From contig NZ_PNEC01000042.1 of NCBI RefSeq assembly GCF_005886345.1, positions 1 to 64,000 of the forward strand: 64,000 nt of DNA, in the 5' to 3' direction. This DNA comes from Pseudoalteromonas phenolica (lineage in GTDB: Bacteria; Pseudomonadota; Gammaproteobacteria; Enterobacterales; Alteromonadaceae). The notes under the pieces are model-generated. The model made no database searches and was not told the DNA's origin. It saw only the letters and a list, made by a program, of their open reading frames with translations. Each line of letters begins with the position of its first letter. The first letter of the stretch is position 1. Positions 2,974-7,359 of the stretch are shown in pieces. A program made the position numbers and the translations under genes.

Positions 2974-5076
2974 TTAATAATAAGTCAGTACTGTGATGAT
3001 AAATATCGATATGGTCATCACCGGCCAGAACCAAATATTGGCCAGTTGTTTATAAATACGACCATCACCCGTTTCTTCTTTGGCTTTATAATATTGATGC
3101 GCTATCAACATAAAGATTGATGAAACCAAATAAAGCAAGAAGTAAAAAATCTCAAAATAGACCACTTCGTCAATTTGTAGGTGCTCACGAATACTGTAAT
3201 GCGCCAGCAAAATAGTAAATACAACTGCAGTAATATTGTTACGTAAATCACCATAAGGTGTGTACTTCATACTAACTACACATGCATATAGTAGGCATAC
3301 CATGACCATTACTGGTAGCAAGGTTGTCACAAACGGCCCTATAAACTCCCTTTCAATATTAATATTGTAATTTAACTCAGGTGCTACATTCTGATTAAAA
3401 AAAGTATCTAAGCCAAAGTTAGTGTTATAGCTTTCGAAACGATATTTAAAATAACTACTCTTTAACTGCCACTCATCTAACACAATTGCAGGGGCTACAG
3501 CTGGGTTGTCCATTTTTGAAAGCTTTTCATAAGACTCTAAATCCGGCACTAAAATAACATTACCACCCATATCTGCTTCGTTGAAACTCAGCTCAATGCT
3601 CTTGTGATCAAACGGGTATTTACTGTAATCAAATTGTTGCCTAGTTTCAGTAGAGAAACGCCAGCCAACCAAAAGGCCGCCATCTTGTTGCTCTTGCCTG
3701 TAAGCTTCTTCTATTTTGTTATTGACCGTATGATTGAAAGATAATTTTGGTTTAATGATTTTTCTCTGCTCAGCAGTCAGCTTTTGCCAAGCATGACCTG
3801 TCAGGTGCACATTATTGGCGTTTACAAACTCCAAAGACTCAACATAAAGGCCCGTCGCAACAAACTCTGGTGTTTCAACATGCATTTTTTCTAGTCTGTC
3901 TTGATAACTTGATGAAAATGCCTCTCTTTGTGCTTGTGTCGTAATGATCACATTATCGTTTTGCTCCAAAGTCTTAAAACTACGGGCAAACTCAAGTACC
4001 AACATGGTACTCATCATTAAAGTTACTGACAGTAACACGTTATTCTGCGTCCATGTTAAACGTCTTAATTTTGTTAAAAGCAGAATTAAGAAAATAATAG
4101 ATGACGAGCCCCAAGCAATAATTTGAATATTACTCTGCCTGCGTTCATCTCTATCCATGGCAAACATGTCTGAAGACATGCGTGTGATCAATGTCCAATT
4201 AGTATGAGGTACCTTAGTACAAGCGGCATAATGTTCGTCGTTATCAAGTGTCTCGCCATTAAAGAATAGATAATCTAAGTTTTTATCAAAGCATCCAGAT
4301 ATTTTGGCTAAATACTTAAATTCAGACTCTTTCACTAAATCATCAAGGTGCTCCATTCCTCGCACATGACTAAATACAGGGTGAGATATAAGGCTCTGAT
4401 TTTCAGAAAATATTATTCCGTAGCCGCCTAGGCCCAAATCAAGTTCTTTTAATGATGCCGTTAATTGATCTAAAGAAACATCGGAAGGGACTACTCCCAA
4501 AGGGGCTTTGCCTGCTCGCTTATCTTCCTTCGACTGATAAAAAGGCACAGAATAGGTTGTCATTAGCACATTGTTCTGAGGCTCATAATACGGCTCAGTC
4601 CAGATCGGTCCTTCTTTTAACGGCCTGTGGTACCAACTAAATTCTCTAAATGGCTTATCATAATCAACCAAGTTGTAGGTGCGCTCAACACCCGTTAATC
4701 TTTCATAATAAGGGCTAAAATAACGTACATCTGACTGATACTTATATGGGTGAAAGGTCACATTGAGCGAGTAAATATCTTCATTTACTGCAAATTCATC
4801 TTCTAGCAGTTTTATCACAAATGTTTTGTCTGGAGTCGCTGTCACTTCTGTGGCAAACCTATCAACACTGTCCATTATTTTAGTGAGTGCTTTATCAACC
4901 TCTTCTGCTGCAACTAAGGTTTGTGATTTAACTTGTGCCCTCACCTCTTGACCAAAGGAATGAGCTTGTTGTAATTGATAAATACCATTTACTAAAAAGC
5001 CAATCACAGAAACTGCTAGGAAAAAGAGTAATATTGGTGTCGTCGCTCGATGACTCCAAGGATCGTTTAAGTGCAC
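2974..5076 (-). CDS. Cache sensor domain fused to a pentameric ligand-gated ion channel (predicted)
   Basis: 700 residues. Seen in order: membrane segment 12-33; a periplasmic region about 40-310 with dCache-like pattern (e.g. SWYHRPLKEGPIWTEPYYE, then MTTYSVPFY); membrane segments about 317-337 and 345-365; a second periplasmic beta-rich domain about 400-575; four C-terminal membrane segments about 578-601, 611-632, 638-662 and 680-700. The second domain has the hallmarks of the pentameric ligand-gated channel family: FDYSKYPFDHKSIEL (the Y/F-P-F-D element of the Cys-loop/Pro-loop region, 487-490), a TGLYVESLEFVN strand and a late W...Y...R series. The M2 stretch NNITAVVFTILLAHYSI resembles the GLIC pore helix as I remember it. 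Inference: a cation or anion channel gated by the LBD and tuned by a ligand bound to the Cache module. Cys residues of a eukaryotic-type Cys-loop are absent, as usual in bacteria. Monocistronic. Confidence 0.75.
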   Translation of the reverse strand: MHLNDPWSHRATTPILLFFLAVSVIGFLVNGIYQLQQAHSFGQEVRAQVKSQTLVAAEEVDKALTKIMDSVDRFATEVTATPDKTFVIKLLEDEFAVNEDIYSLNVTFHPYKYQSDVRYFSPYYERLTGVERTYNLVDYDKPFREFSWYHRPLKEGPIWTEPYYEPQNNVLMTTYSVPFYQSKEDKRAGKAPLGVVPSDVSLDQLTASLKELDLGLGGYGIIFSENQSLISHPVFSHVRGMEHLDDLVKESEFKYLAKISGCFDKNLDYLFFNGETLDNDEHYAACTKVPHTNWTLITRMSSDMFAMDRDERRQSNIQIIAWGSSSIIFLILLLTKLRRLTWTQNNVLLSVTLMMSTMLVLEFARSFKTLEQNDNVIITTQAQREAFSSSYQDRLEKMHVETPEFVATGLYVESLEFVNANNVHLTGHAWQKLTAEQRKIIKPKLSFNHTVNNKIEEAYRQEQQDGGLLVGWRFSTETRQQFDYSKYPFDHKSIELSFNEADMGGNVILVPDLESYEKLSKMDNPAVAPAIVLDEWQLKSSYFKYRFESYNTNFGLDTFFNQNVAPELNYNINIEREFIGPFVTTLLPVMVMVCLLYACVVSMKYTPYGDLRNNITAVVFTILLAHYSIREHLQIDEVVYFEIFYFLLYLVSSIFMLIAHQYYKAKEETGDGRIYKQLANIWFWPVMTISIFIITVLTYY

Positions 5077-5496: not shown

Positions 5497-7359
5497 TTAG
5501 TAGCTAGCTTGTAGCGTCAAACCATTATAAGCGCTATAGCCACGAAGCATGATGTAGTAAGTACCGCCAGTACCAGAACTTAAACTACAGCTCTCATTGT
5601 TACCATTACGGTAAGGGCGGCAGTCGTATGTACTTGTTGTTGGTGCAGCTCCTTTACGAACATAAAGGTCTGCATCACCAGAGCCGCCTGATGTATTTAC
5701 ATTTAGTGTTACACCCGCTGGTACATCAATCGTGTAAACAACCTCAGAATTACGTGTTCCAGAAAGGCTCGTTACTGGTACACCATTATCTAGGCAATTC
5801 GCACCGCAACCACCACCTGATGATGTTTGGGCTTTCAGTGACACACCTGAATAAGCACTGTAGCCTCGAACCATTACATGCCAAGTGCCAGCAGTTGGGT
5901 TATTGAAAGTACAGGTTTCTTCATTGCCATTTTTGTATGGGCGACAGCTATATGAAGATTGTGTTGGTTTAGTACCTTGTTGAACATAGATATCAGCATC
6001 ACCAGAACCACCAGTCATACTGAAAGCCACATTTGAAGTACCAGCAGGTACTTCAAATGTGAAGAAACTTTCAGAGCCTCTAGCACCAGAGATGTTTACA
6101 GCAACACCATCTTCAAGTGCTGGATCAGGGTCAACTGGGTCAACTGGGCCGCCGTCACCAACGAGGCTATATAAAAGTTCATTTGGAGAACCCGATTTTG
6201 CATCGCTTATCTTGTTCTTAGAACTGCGGTTACTTAAAAGTGAATCAATTTGTGCTGGAGAGCGCGAGCCATCCTCATCAAGGTAAAGTGCAGCAACACC
6301 TGCAACATGTGGTGCAGCCATTGATGTACCACTTATTGTATTCGTTGACGTGTTTGAATTGTACCAAGCTGACTTGATGCTTGAACCCGGTGCGTAAATA
6401 TCTAAACAGCTACCATAGTTAGAGAAACTTGAACGGCTATCACTGCTCGTTGTTGAACCTACTGTGATTGCATCTGCAGCACGAGCTGGTGAGTAGTTAC
6501 AAGCATTAGAGTTGTCGTTACCTGCTGCAACAACAAAGGTTACACCAGAAGCAACCGCAGAATTAACTGCTGCATCAAGTGCTTGTGAAACACCGCCACC
6601 TAAACTCATGTTTGCAACAGAAGGGCCAGATGCATTGTTTTTAACCCAATCAACACCAGCAATTACACCAGAGTTAGTACCTGAACCAGAACAACCAAGT
6701 ACTTTAATACCAACGATATTCACATTCTTTGCAACACCGTATTGGCTACCACCAATTGTACCCGCAACGTGAGTACCATGACCGTTACAATCTGTTGCAT
6801 CACCATCGTTATCTACGAAATCGTAACCATGTGATGCACGACCACCAAACTCGTTGTGCGAAATAAGTACACCAGTATCGATAACGTAAGCCGTTACGCC
6901 TGCACCATCATAGTCATAGTGGTAGTTAGAGTTTAGTGGACGATCACGCTGGTCAATTCGGTCTAGACCCCAAATCGCGTTGCTTTGATCAGCATTCGTA
7001 GCTGCCATAGGTGACACACTTACAATCTGATCTTGCTCAATATAGTCAATATCAGGATTGCTTAATAAATCTTGAATTTGAAGTGCAGATGCATTCACAA
7101 CCACACCGTTTAGAGAGCCAGAAAACTTTCGTGATACATCTACGTTATATTTATTAACGAGAGTTTGACTAGCTTGCTCTGCATAACTTGCTACTGCATC
7201 AGCGCTTTGAATATTTAAAACAGAAGGCGTTTTAAATACTACAATATATTGATTTGGAATGGCTTTGCTTGCAGAGACTTGTGCTAATTCTGCTTGAGCT
7301 AAAGCTTGTCCAGATACAATTGCACCAATGGCGAATGCGAGGGTTGATAATTTACGCAT
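5497..7359 (-). CDS. Secreted subtilisin-like serine protease with two PPC domains
   Basis: 620-residue preproprotease of family S8, proteinase-K-like. Signal peptide 1-22 (cleavage after ALA); inhibitor_I9 propeptide about 37-115; catalytic domain about 128-400 with Asp161 (YVIDTGV), His194 (CNGHGTHVAG), oxyanion Asn281 (AAGND) and Ser346 (SGTSMAAPHVAG); a Pro/Asp linker (GPVDPVDPDP); then two pre-peptidase C-terminal domains about 418-512 and 524-620, each with GGSGDAD(I/L)YV and RPY(K/R)NGN. PPC domains are normally removed or help secretion and substrate binding. Start is preceded by AAAGGAAT. Expected extracellular, broad-specificity protein scavenging. All catalytic residues are present. 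Confidence 0.97.
   Translation of the reverse strand: MRKLSTLAFAIGAIVSGQALAQAELAQVSASKAIPNQYIVVFKTPSVLNIQSADAVASYAEQASQTLVNKYNVDVSRKFSGSLNGVVVNASALQIQDLLSNPDIDYIEQDQIVSVSPMAATNADQSNAIWGLDRIDQRDRPLNSNYHYDYDGAGVTAYVIDTGVLISHNEFGGRASHGYDFVDNDGDATDCNGHGTHVAGTIGGSQYGVAKNVNIVGIKVLGCSGSGTNSGVIAGVDWVKNNASGPSVANMSLGGGVSQALDAAVNSAVASGVTFVVAAGNDNSNACNYSPARAADAITVGSTTSSDSRSSFSNYGSCLDIYAPGSSIKSAWYNSNTSTNTISGTSMAAPHVAGVAALYLDEDGSRSPAQIDSLLSNRSSKNKISDAKSGSPNELLYSLVGDGGPVDPVDPDPALEDGVAVNISGARGSESFFTFEVPAGTSNVAFSMTGGSGDADIYVQQGTKPTQSSYSCRPYKNGNEETCTFNNPTAGTWHVMVRGYSAYSGVSLKAQTSSGGGCGANCLDNGVPVTSLSGTRNSEVVYTIDVPAGVTLNVNTSGGSGDADLYVRKGAAPTTSTYDCRPYRNGNNESCSLSSGTGGTYYIMLRGYSAYNGLTLQASY

Follow-up and report, generated by a model that had tools for sequence, protein, structure and literature searches.

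A predicted pentameric ligand-gated ion channel fused to a dCache sensor domain, with seven membrane helices per subunit

The window (the whole 64,000-nucleotide stretch of DNA analysed here) carries a gene for a 700-residue protein whose predicted domain order is a first membrane helix (TM1), a dCache sensor domain, two further membrane helices (TM2 and TM3), and then the extracellular domain (ECD) and four helices (M1-M4) of a pentameric ligand-gated ion channel (pLGIC). Its features, each with its basis, are:

2974..5076, minus strand: Cache-pLGIC gene, 700 aa, GTG start at 5076, stop at 2974-2976
4987..5043, minus strand: TM1, residues 12-30, within a long first helix 6-80 (hydropathy and model)
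4150..4971, minus strand: predicted periplasmic dCache sensor, residues about 36-309 (Pfam; dCache structures, Z up to 24.4)
4069..4152, minus strand: TM2, residues 309-336 (hydropathy and model)
3979..4053, minus strand: TM3, residues 342-366 (hydropathy, model and conservation)
3349..3879, minus strand: predicted pLGIC extracellular beta-sandwich domain, residues 400-576 (model, superposition and hhalign)
3607..3618, minus strand: YPFD element of the Pro-loop, residues 487-490 (sequence; aligned to the GLIC element)
3349..3351, minus strand: pre-M1 arginine R576 (GLIC alignment; 37 of 37 rows)
3271..3342, minus strand: M1, residues 579-602, with P588 (model and conservation)
3181..3255, minus strand: M2, the predicted pore helix, residues 608-632 (model, hhalign and conservation)
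3073..3162, minus strand: M3, residues 639-668 (model)
2980..3060, minus strand: M4, residues 673-699 (model)

Judged from its sequence, this is a genuine and conserved gene. Its ortholog in Pseudoalteromonas phenolica (L026) has the same length (700 aa), also starts with GTG and is identical to the window protein at 590 of 700 residues; between the two genes dN is 0.11 and dS is saturated, a pattern in favour of purifying selection. P. phenolica is likewise the best named relative of the C-terminal half (91% identity), and residues 579-700 are the best conserved part, being 97% identical to the ortholog. Occurrence is patchy, with a C-terminal match in 21 of 196 genomes of the window's taxonomic family and in two of the eight listed genomes of its genus; a single family gene was found in the window's own genome.

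Neighbouring genes encode a GH19 chitinase with CBM5/12 (204-1655), an LRR protein (2167-2931) and an S8 protease with PPC stretches (5497-7359), the chitinase and protease being 97% and 93% identical, respectively, to relatives near the L026 gene. The LRR gene is convergent with the Cache-pLGIC gene, and the protease gene lies on the other side across a gap of about 420 bases; an operon with these neighbours, among which no partner was seen, was therefore rejected. A scan for promoters and terminators at the gene returned only chance-level signals. A link to type VI secretion was also set aside, since VgrG-type genes precede some relatives but neither the window's gene nor that of P. phenolica. 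At one locus of a relative (L131, 1159-9757) a VgrG-like gene, a DUF6931 gene and a large ORF without clear domain come ahead of the Cache-pLGIC gene, which is followed by an EAL-domain gene; L028 and L132 appear by eye to be arranged alike, the Pfam basis being that of L131 only.

One scan of named genomes provided 72 loci with 79 open reading frames (ORFs) of this family. Members were labelled long or short by the number of residues ahead of the channel core, long meaning over 250, and the alignments used below comprise 37 hand-picked long forms (A5, in which L026, L041, L047 and L050 are without the first part and L054 and L084 without the end), 22 hand-picked short forms (A9), and the window protein with 15 of the 24 other loci from the search of its taxonomic family, near-copies and partial loci being omitted (A2). 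Hydropathy averaged over A5 gives seven hydrophobic segments, at residues 12-30, 317-335, 345-363, 586-604, 611-629, 644-662 and 681-699, and an AlphaFold model of the monomer calculated from the same 37 rows (mean pLDDT 83.9, pTM 0.74) places helices where hydropathy puts them and ten strands between residues 375 and 576. Both approaches agree with the initial annotation, which had described an N-terminal helix, a dCache-like periplasmic region, two helices, a beta domain and four C-terminal helices, and both predict the seven helices per subunit that it had proposed.

Lys and Arg outnumber Asp and Glu at the N-terminus and in the M3-M4 loop, and the reverse holds in both large domains. This balance fits a topology with the N-terminus inside, the Cache domain outside, TM2 and TM3 as a hairpin, and the ECD and C-terminus outside, although in the M1-M2 loop acidic residues slightly exceed basic ones, contrary to a plain positive-inside reading. 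Trp342, which heads TM3, is present in all 36 rows with a letter at this position, and in alignment the sole N-terminal helix of the short forms falls on TM3 of the window protein; for these two reasons TM3 is probably more than a signal sequence.

Assignment of the N-terminal half to the dCache domains, also part of the initial annotation, was borne out. The window protein matches PF22673 (MCP-like_PDC_1) at E 4.6e-17 with 62.9 bits against a cut-off of 27, and dCache_1 at E 3.7e-11 with 43.4 bits, just below the cut-off of 45 (the N-terminal piece alone scores 45.2); dCache_1 is found at E<=0.01 in 35 of the 37 long rows of A5. Model residues 44-304 superpose on TlpQ with a Z of 24.4, and among the rows listed the top dCache matches also include mmHK1S-Z2 (24.0), mmHK1S-Z3 (23.7), PctD (23.3) and MkcA (23.1). 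By profile and by modelled fold, this half is a dCache domain, i.e. a double PAS-like Cache fold with a long N-terminal helix.

Four residues of this domain (W148, Y149, Y163 and D199) align with or near conserved dCache pocket positions. Amino-acid sensors of the dCache_1AA type carry an Arg (R126 in PctA) just ahead of a W-Y pair (PMC10104139, parts consulted). An equivalent of PctA R126 is absent from the seven rows of A6, in which EFSW is invariant, and from the alignment to PctB; a reading of the Cache domain as an amino-acid sensor was accordingly rejected, the carboxylate-holding arginine having no counterpart. The dCache_1AM amine motif is given, in PctD numbering, as an R103/D133 insertion, W155, F188-Y189, M215, S217 and D235 (same parts of PMC10104139); in the window's Cache domain the aromatic pair and the Asp are present, and alignment to 3LIB and MkcA suggests that the R/D insertion is lacking. 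Carriers of the amine domain named in these parts are chemoreceptors, kinases, nucleotide-turnover enzymes and phosphatases, and the term 'ion channel' has no occurrence in the text of this amine-sensor preprint (PMC10104139).

Kinship of the C-terminal half with the pLGIC families, as first proposed, stood in profile comparisons and was missed by single-sequence Pfam scans. The C-terminal half of the window protein has no Pfam or NCBIfam pLGIC match at E<=10, and a single-sequence search of the PDB with it gave no match. Neither the window protein nor any of the 16 rows of A2, scanned singly, exceeds the curated cut-off of PF02931 or PF02932, and pLGICs are absent among the families listed for these rows at E<=10. 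PF02931 also has no match in the window's genome or in those of 12 relatives; since control genomes were equally silent, this shows a limit of the model and not an absence of pLGICs, and PF02931 and PF02932 seem too narrow for this branch.

In contrast, a profile of 16 C-terminal halves searched against PDB sequences gave 70 distinct matches at E<=10 (best E 1.6e-4), the 60 listed being all GLIC or GLIC chimeras, with YPFD, the pre-M1 Arg and the M1 Pro in register with GLIC. A set of canonical pLGICs was drawn from cyanobacteria, where 12 of 148 genomes have a Pfam match over cut-off, and nine of the 12 matches were aligned (A7); hhalign joins the family to these nine from the first ECD strand to M4 (probability 97.5, E 8.4e-12). 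An HMM of the same nine, run on the ORFs of at least 90 codons in the 72 loci (1347 in all), returned 26 matches at E<=1e-3, comprising 22 family members and four of another pLGIC type, beyond which nothing matched at this threshold. With the same HMM the window protein has an E of 3e-06 in a separate, small neighbour set. In the 1347-ORF search 57 of the 79 family ORFs are missed at E<=1e-3; the relation to canonical pLGICs is therefore remote.

In the AlphaFold model residues 400-699 superpose on a GLIC subunit (6zgk_A) with a Z of 20.1 and an rmsd of 2.6 Å over 278 aligned residues at about 16% identity, so that the predicted fold has the beta sandwich plus four helices anticipated in the initial annotation. 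A Cache-less short form, from L033, was modelled separately (pLDDT 84.3); its best Z is 19.9, and the 50 rows listed for it are all pLGICs (GLIC, GluCl, GABA-A, GlyR, ELIC and sTeLIC). Whilst the missing direct Pfam match would suit an unrelated beta domain with a four-helix membrane protein that had converged on pLGICs, this is contradicted by significant profile matches in both directions and by superposition over the whole core; ruled out by profile and fold, convergence is extremely improbable. Membership of the C-terminal half in the pLGIC superfamily is secure by family and fold, as judged from the profiles and the model, and at this level the earlier channel reading is supported.

The YPFD element does stand at 487-490 ahead of the last four helices, as had been reported; in A5 its Tyr and Pro are invariant (37 of 37 rows), followed by Phe (31) or Leu (6) and by Asp (33) or Glu (4). 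The pre-M1 Arg and the M1 Pro are features of GLIC; R576 is kept in all 37 rows of A5 and P588 in 25 of 36, including the window protein. Seven of 36 rows have Pro at position 634, so the M2-M3 loop Pro of canonical pLGICs is no general feature here. Within M2, F620 and R630 are each found in 35 of 36 rows and fall at 9' and 19', respectively, in the hhalign register; the HMMER profile alignment is loose in this segment, and the register of M2 may be off by about four residues, or one helical turn. Asp610 of the window protein, near -1' in the hhalign register, would, as a guess, suit cation selectivity.

The explanation that best accommodates these observations, and which we hold to be highly probable, is a ligand-modulated Cache-pLGIC channel with five copies around M2. 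Five subunits would assemble about this helix, and a small molecule would bind in the membrane-distal Cache pocket; the ensuing change would pass through TM2-TM3 and the linker ahead of beta1, and/or through direct contact between Cache domain and ECD, and would reach the junction of the Pro-loop (D490) with the pre-M1 segment (R576). An inner-membrane pore would then open or close, such that ion flux or membrane potential would be altered by an external solute. Since one family gene was found in its genome, the channel of the window species is probably homomeric. dCache receptors are usually dimers, an arrangement with no simple fit to a pentamer.

The distribution of the sensor was followed on a tree of 71 C-terminal domains, i.e. 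the window and those family ORFs (70 of 79) in which 240 or more profile positions are aligned; some of the deeper splits in this tree are weak, and in it several long branches come together. Its rows comprise 40 long, 28 short and three intermediate forms. Long forms occur in Pseudomonadota, Bacteroidota, Nitrospinota, Bacillota, Omnitrophota, Auribacterota, Cyanobacteriota and Methanosarcinales, and the short forms make up one group of 25 and a Chloroflexota group of three. As the long label needs just four changes on this tree, against a shuffled mean of 23.4, gain or loss of the sensor was rare; with 40 of 71 rows long and dCache_1 in 35 of 37 long rows, the Cache-channel fusion is more than chance.

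These counts bear on a reading, put forward by Tasneem et al. for such proteins, in which protons or small ligands gate the channel chiefly at the classical inter-subunit ECD site and the Cache domain is a modest modulator or ligand concentrator. The 28 short rows have no room for a Cache domain, so the core seems to work sensorless, and Tasneem et al. propose preliminary sensing by the extra domain (PMC549065); retention of the long architecture in many phyla (40 of 71 rows) nevertheless points to a coupling that is more than incidental. We regard this reading as a real possibility, somewhat short of probable.

Further arrangements were seen in the family. Tandem pairs of long forms, with open frames 7 to 125 bases apart, lie at L095 (3903-8130), L044 (1558-5996) and L055 (1522-5960). 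The intermediate-length members L083 (4497-5954), L089 (4320-5702) and L037 (4457-5644) are too short for a full Cache domain, and two of the three have extra N-terminal hydrophobic stretches. A cyanobacterial pLGIC (L125, 91-2340) has an N-terminal region that by eye resembles a periplasmic-binding protein (compare the second theme of PMC549065).

Six gammaproteobacterial genomes have another pLGIC gene directly beside the Cache-channel gene, and four of these six have a Cache-less short form as well:

L033, 2500-7112: Cache form, second type and short form
L042, 841-5966: Cache form, second type and short form
L064, 1784-7316: Cache form, second type and short form
L065, 2062-7250: Cache form, second type and short form
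L144, 5400-8707: Cache form and second pLGIC type, adjacent
L145, 5894-9168: Cache form and second pLGIC type, adjacent

The paired open frames are 27 to 80 bases apart in the six genomes, the second gene of L145 having one stop. In the first four the three genes lie on one strand within 4.6-5.5 kb, with 366-370 codons in the second type; the order is short, long, second type in L033, and long, second type, a methyltransferase-like ORF, short in L042, L064 and L065 (the methyltransferase was domain-scanned in L042). Compared with canonical pLGICs, the second type reaches 99.1 in hhalign (E 6.3e-19) and HMM E values down to 2.5e-22; in Pfam it stays below cut-off, with a best E of 0.0035 and no match in one of four. 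A search of 369 genomes of the class found the second type in six, namely L033's genome, apparently that of L065, L144, L145 and two with weaker matches (E about 1e-31), for which no family neighbour was found within the short loci examined. Within the window's taxonomic family three of 192 genomes match, one just, at E 9.7e-4; the L130 region of this taxonomic family, which has the second type, showed no long or short neighbour, and the window's genome gave no match to the second type.

These co-encoded genes hint at heteromers in those relatives. They also favour, together with a family M2 that is unusual in its near-invariant F620 and R630, the view that the protein is a pLGIC-fold sensor that does not conduct alone but signals, as receptor or modulatory subunit, by way of partner proteins or solely within a heteromer. 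However, searches of the window's genome turned up one family gene and nothing matching the second type, and the best conservation, that of residues 579-700, is what would be expected if the pore matters; we consider a non-conducting sensor quite unlikely. For the ligand-modulated channel that we prefer, a more specific proposal is that a helix pair of its own anchors the sensor, with TM2-TM3 as a through-membrane relay in place of periplasmic stacking, and that some bacteria additionally form heteromers from subunits encoded side by side (Cache, Cache-less five-helix and canonical-like); this is tentative, possible but doubtful.

If the relatives' co-encoded subunits do form heteromers, mixing of pLGIC subunits would not be an animal speciality; a literature search for heteromeric prokaryotic pLGICs and operons brought up two papers, judged by their titles and the starts of their abstracts. 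A natural Cache-pLGIC would join a GLIC-like channel to a chemoreceptor sensor, the ligands of which binding assays can identify; both the physiological role of bacterial pLGICs and the coupling of ligand to gate would become directly testable in it.

The initial annotation had left open whether this arrangement had been described. It has: descriptions of Cache-fused prokaryotic pLGICs go back to 2004/5, when Tasneem et al. reported fusions to MCP-N and Cache in Methanosarcina, Cytophaga and Microbulbifer, for which they proposed roles as chemoreceptors (PMC549065, parts consulted). The kind has thus been known for about twenty years and is experimentally unstudied as far as literature searches show, no functional study of a Cache-pLGIC having been found among the best-ranked matches listed; in the available part of the text of Jaiteh et al. 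(PMC4795631) the terms 'N-terminal domain', 'additional domain', 'periplasmic' and 'chemotaxis' have no occurrence. Less expected are the two membrane helices between sensor and channel, the Cache-less shorter form and the co-encoded subunits in relatives.

The family profile matches in seven of 30 Methanosarcina genomes, as six open frames of 696-722 codons and one broken gene. In the Methanosarcina genomes no PF02931 match exceeds the cut-off; two weak matches fall below it, one at E 0.005 in a frame interrupted by stops and the other at E 0.05. The canonical pLGIC profile matches in four of the 30, each time inside a family member over about 120 positions, and misses the remaining ones; the four Methanosarcina proteins scanned all have dCache_1 over cut-off. 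Because these searches find the window's family there, the published Methanosarcina proteins very probably belong to it, an identification made by genome searches.

Amongst known systems, the fusions of Tasneem et al. (their third theme) combine, as does the window protein, an N-terminal Cache domain with a ligand-binding domain (LBD) and a four-helix membrane domain; their text gives the order as signal peptide, extra domains, LBD and 4-TM, and helices between Cache and LBD are unmentioned in the parts of the text consulted (PMC549065). DeCLIC, too, is a bacterial pLGIC with an N-terminal periplasmic accessory domain, and is given in the available part of its description as the only pLGIC with a partly characterised N-terminal domain; unlike the Cache domain of the window protein, its accessory domain consists of two jelly-roll lobes (PMC12664993). 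The dCache sensors of TlpQ, PctD, MkcA and PacA share the fold of window residues 44-304 (Z 22-24); they are compared here as chemoreceptor sensors, with a chemotaxis signalling domain, whereas the window's dCache is fused to a channel. GLIC has the whole core fold, the Pro-loop, the pre-M1 Arg and the M1 Pro in common with the window protein at about 16% identity. It carries neither a Cache domain nor any helices ahead of its extracellular domain.
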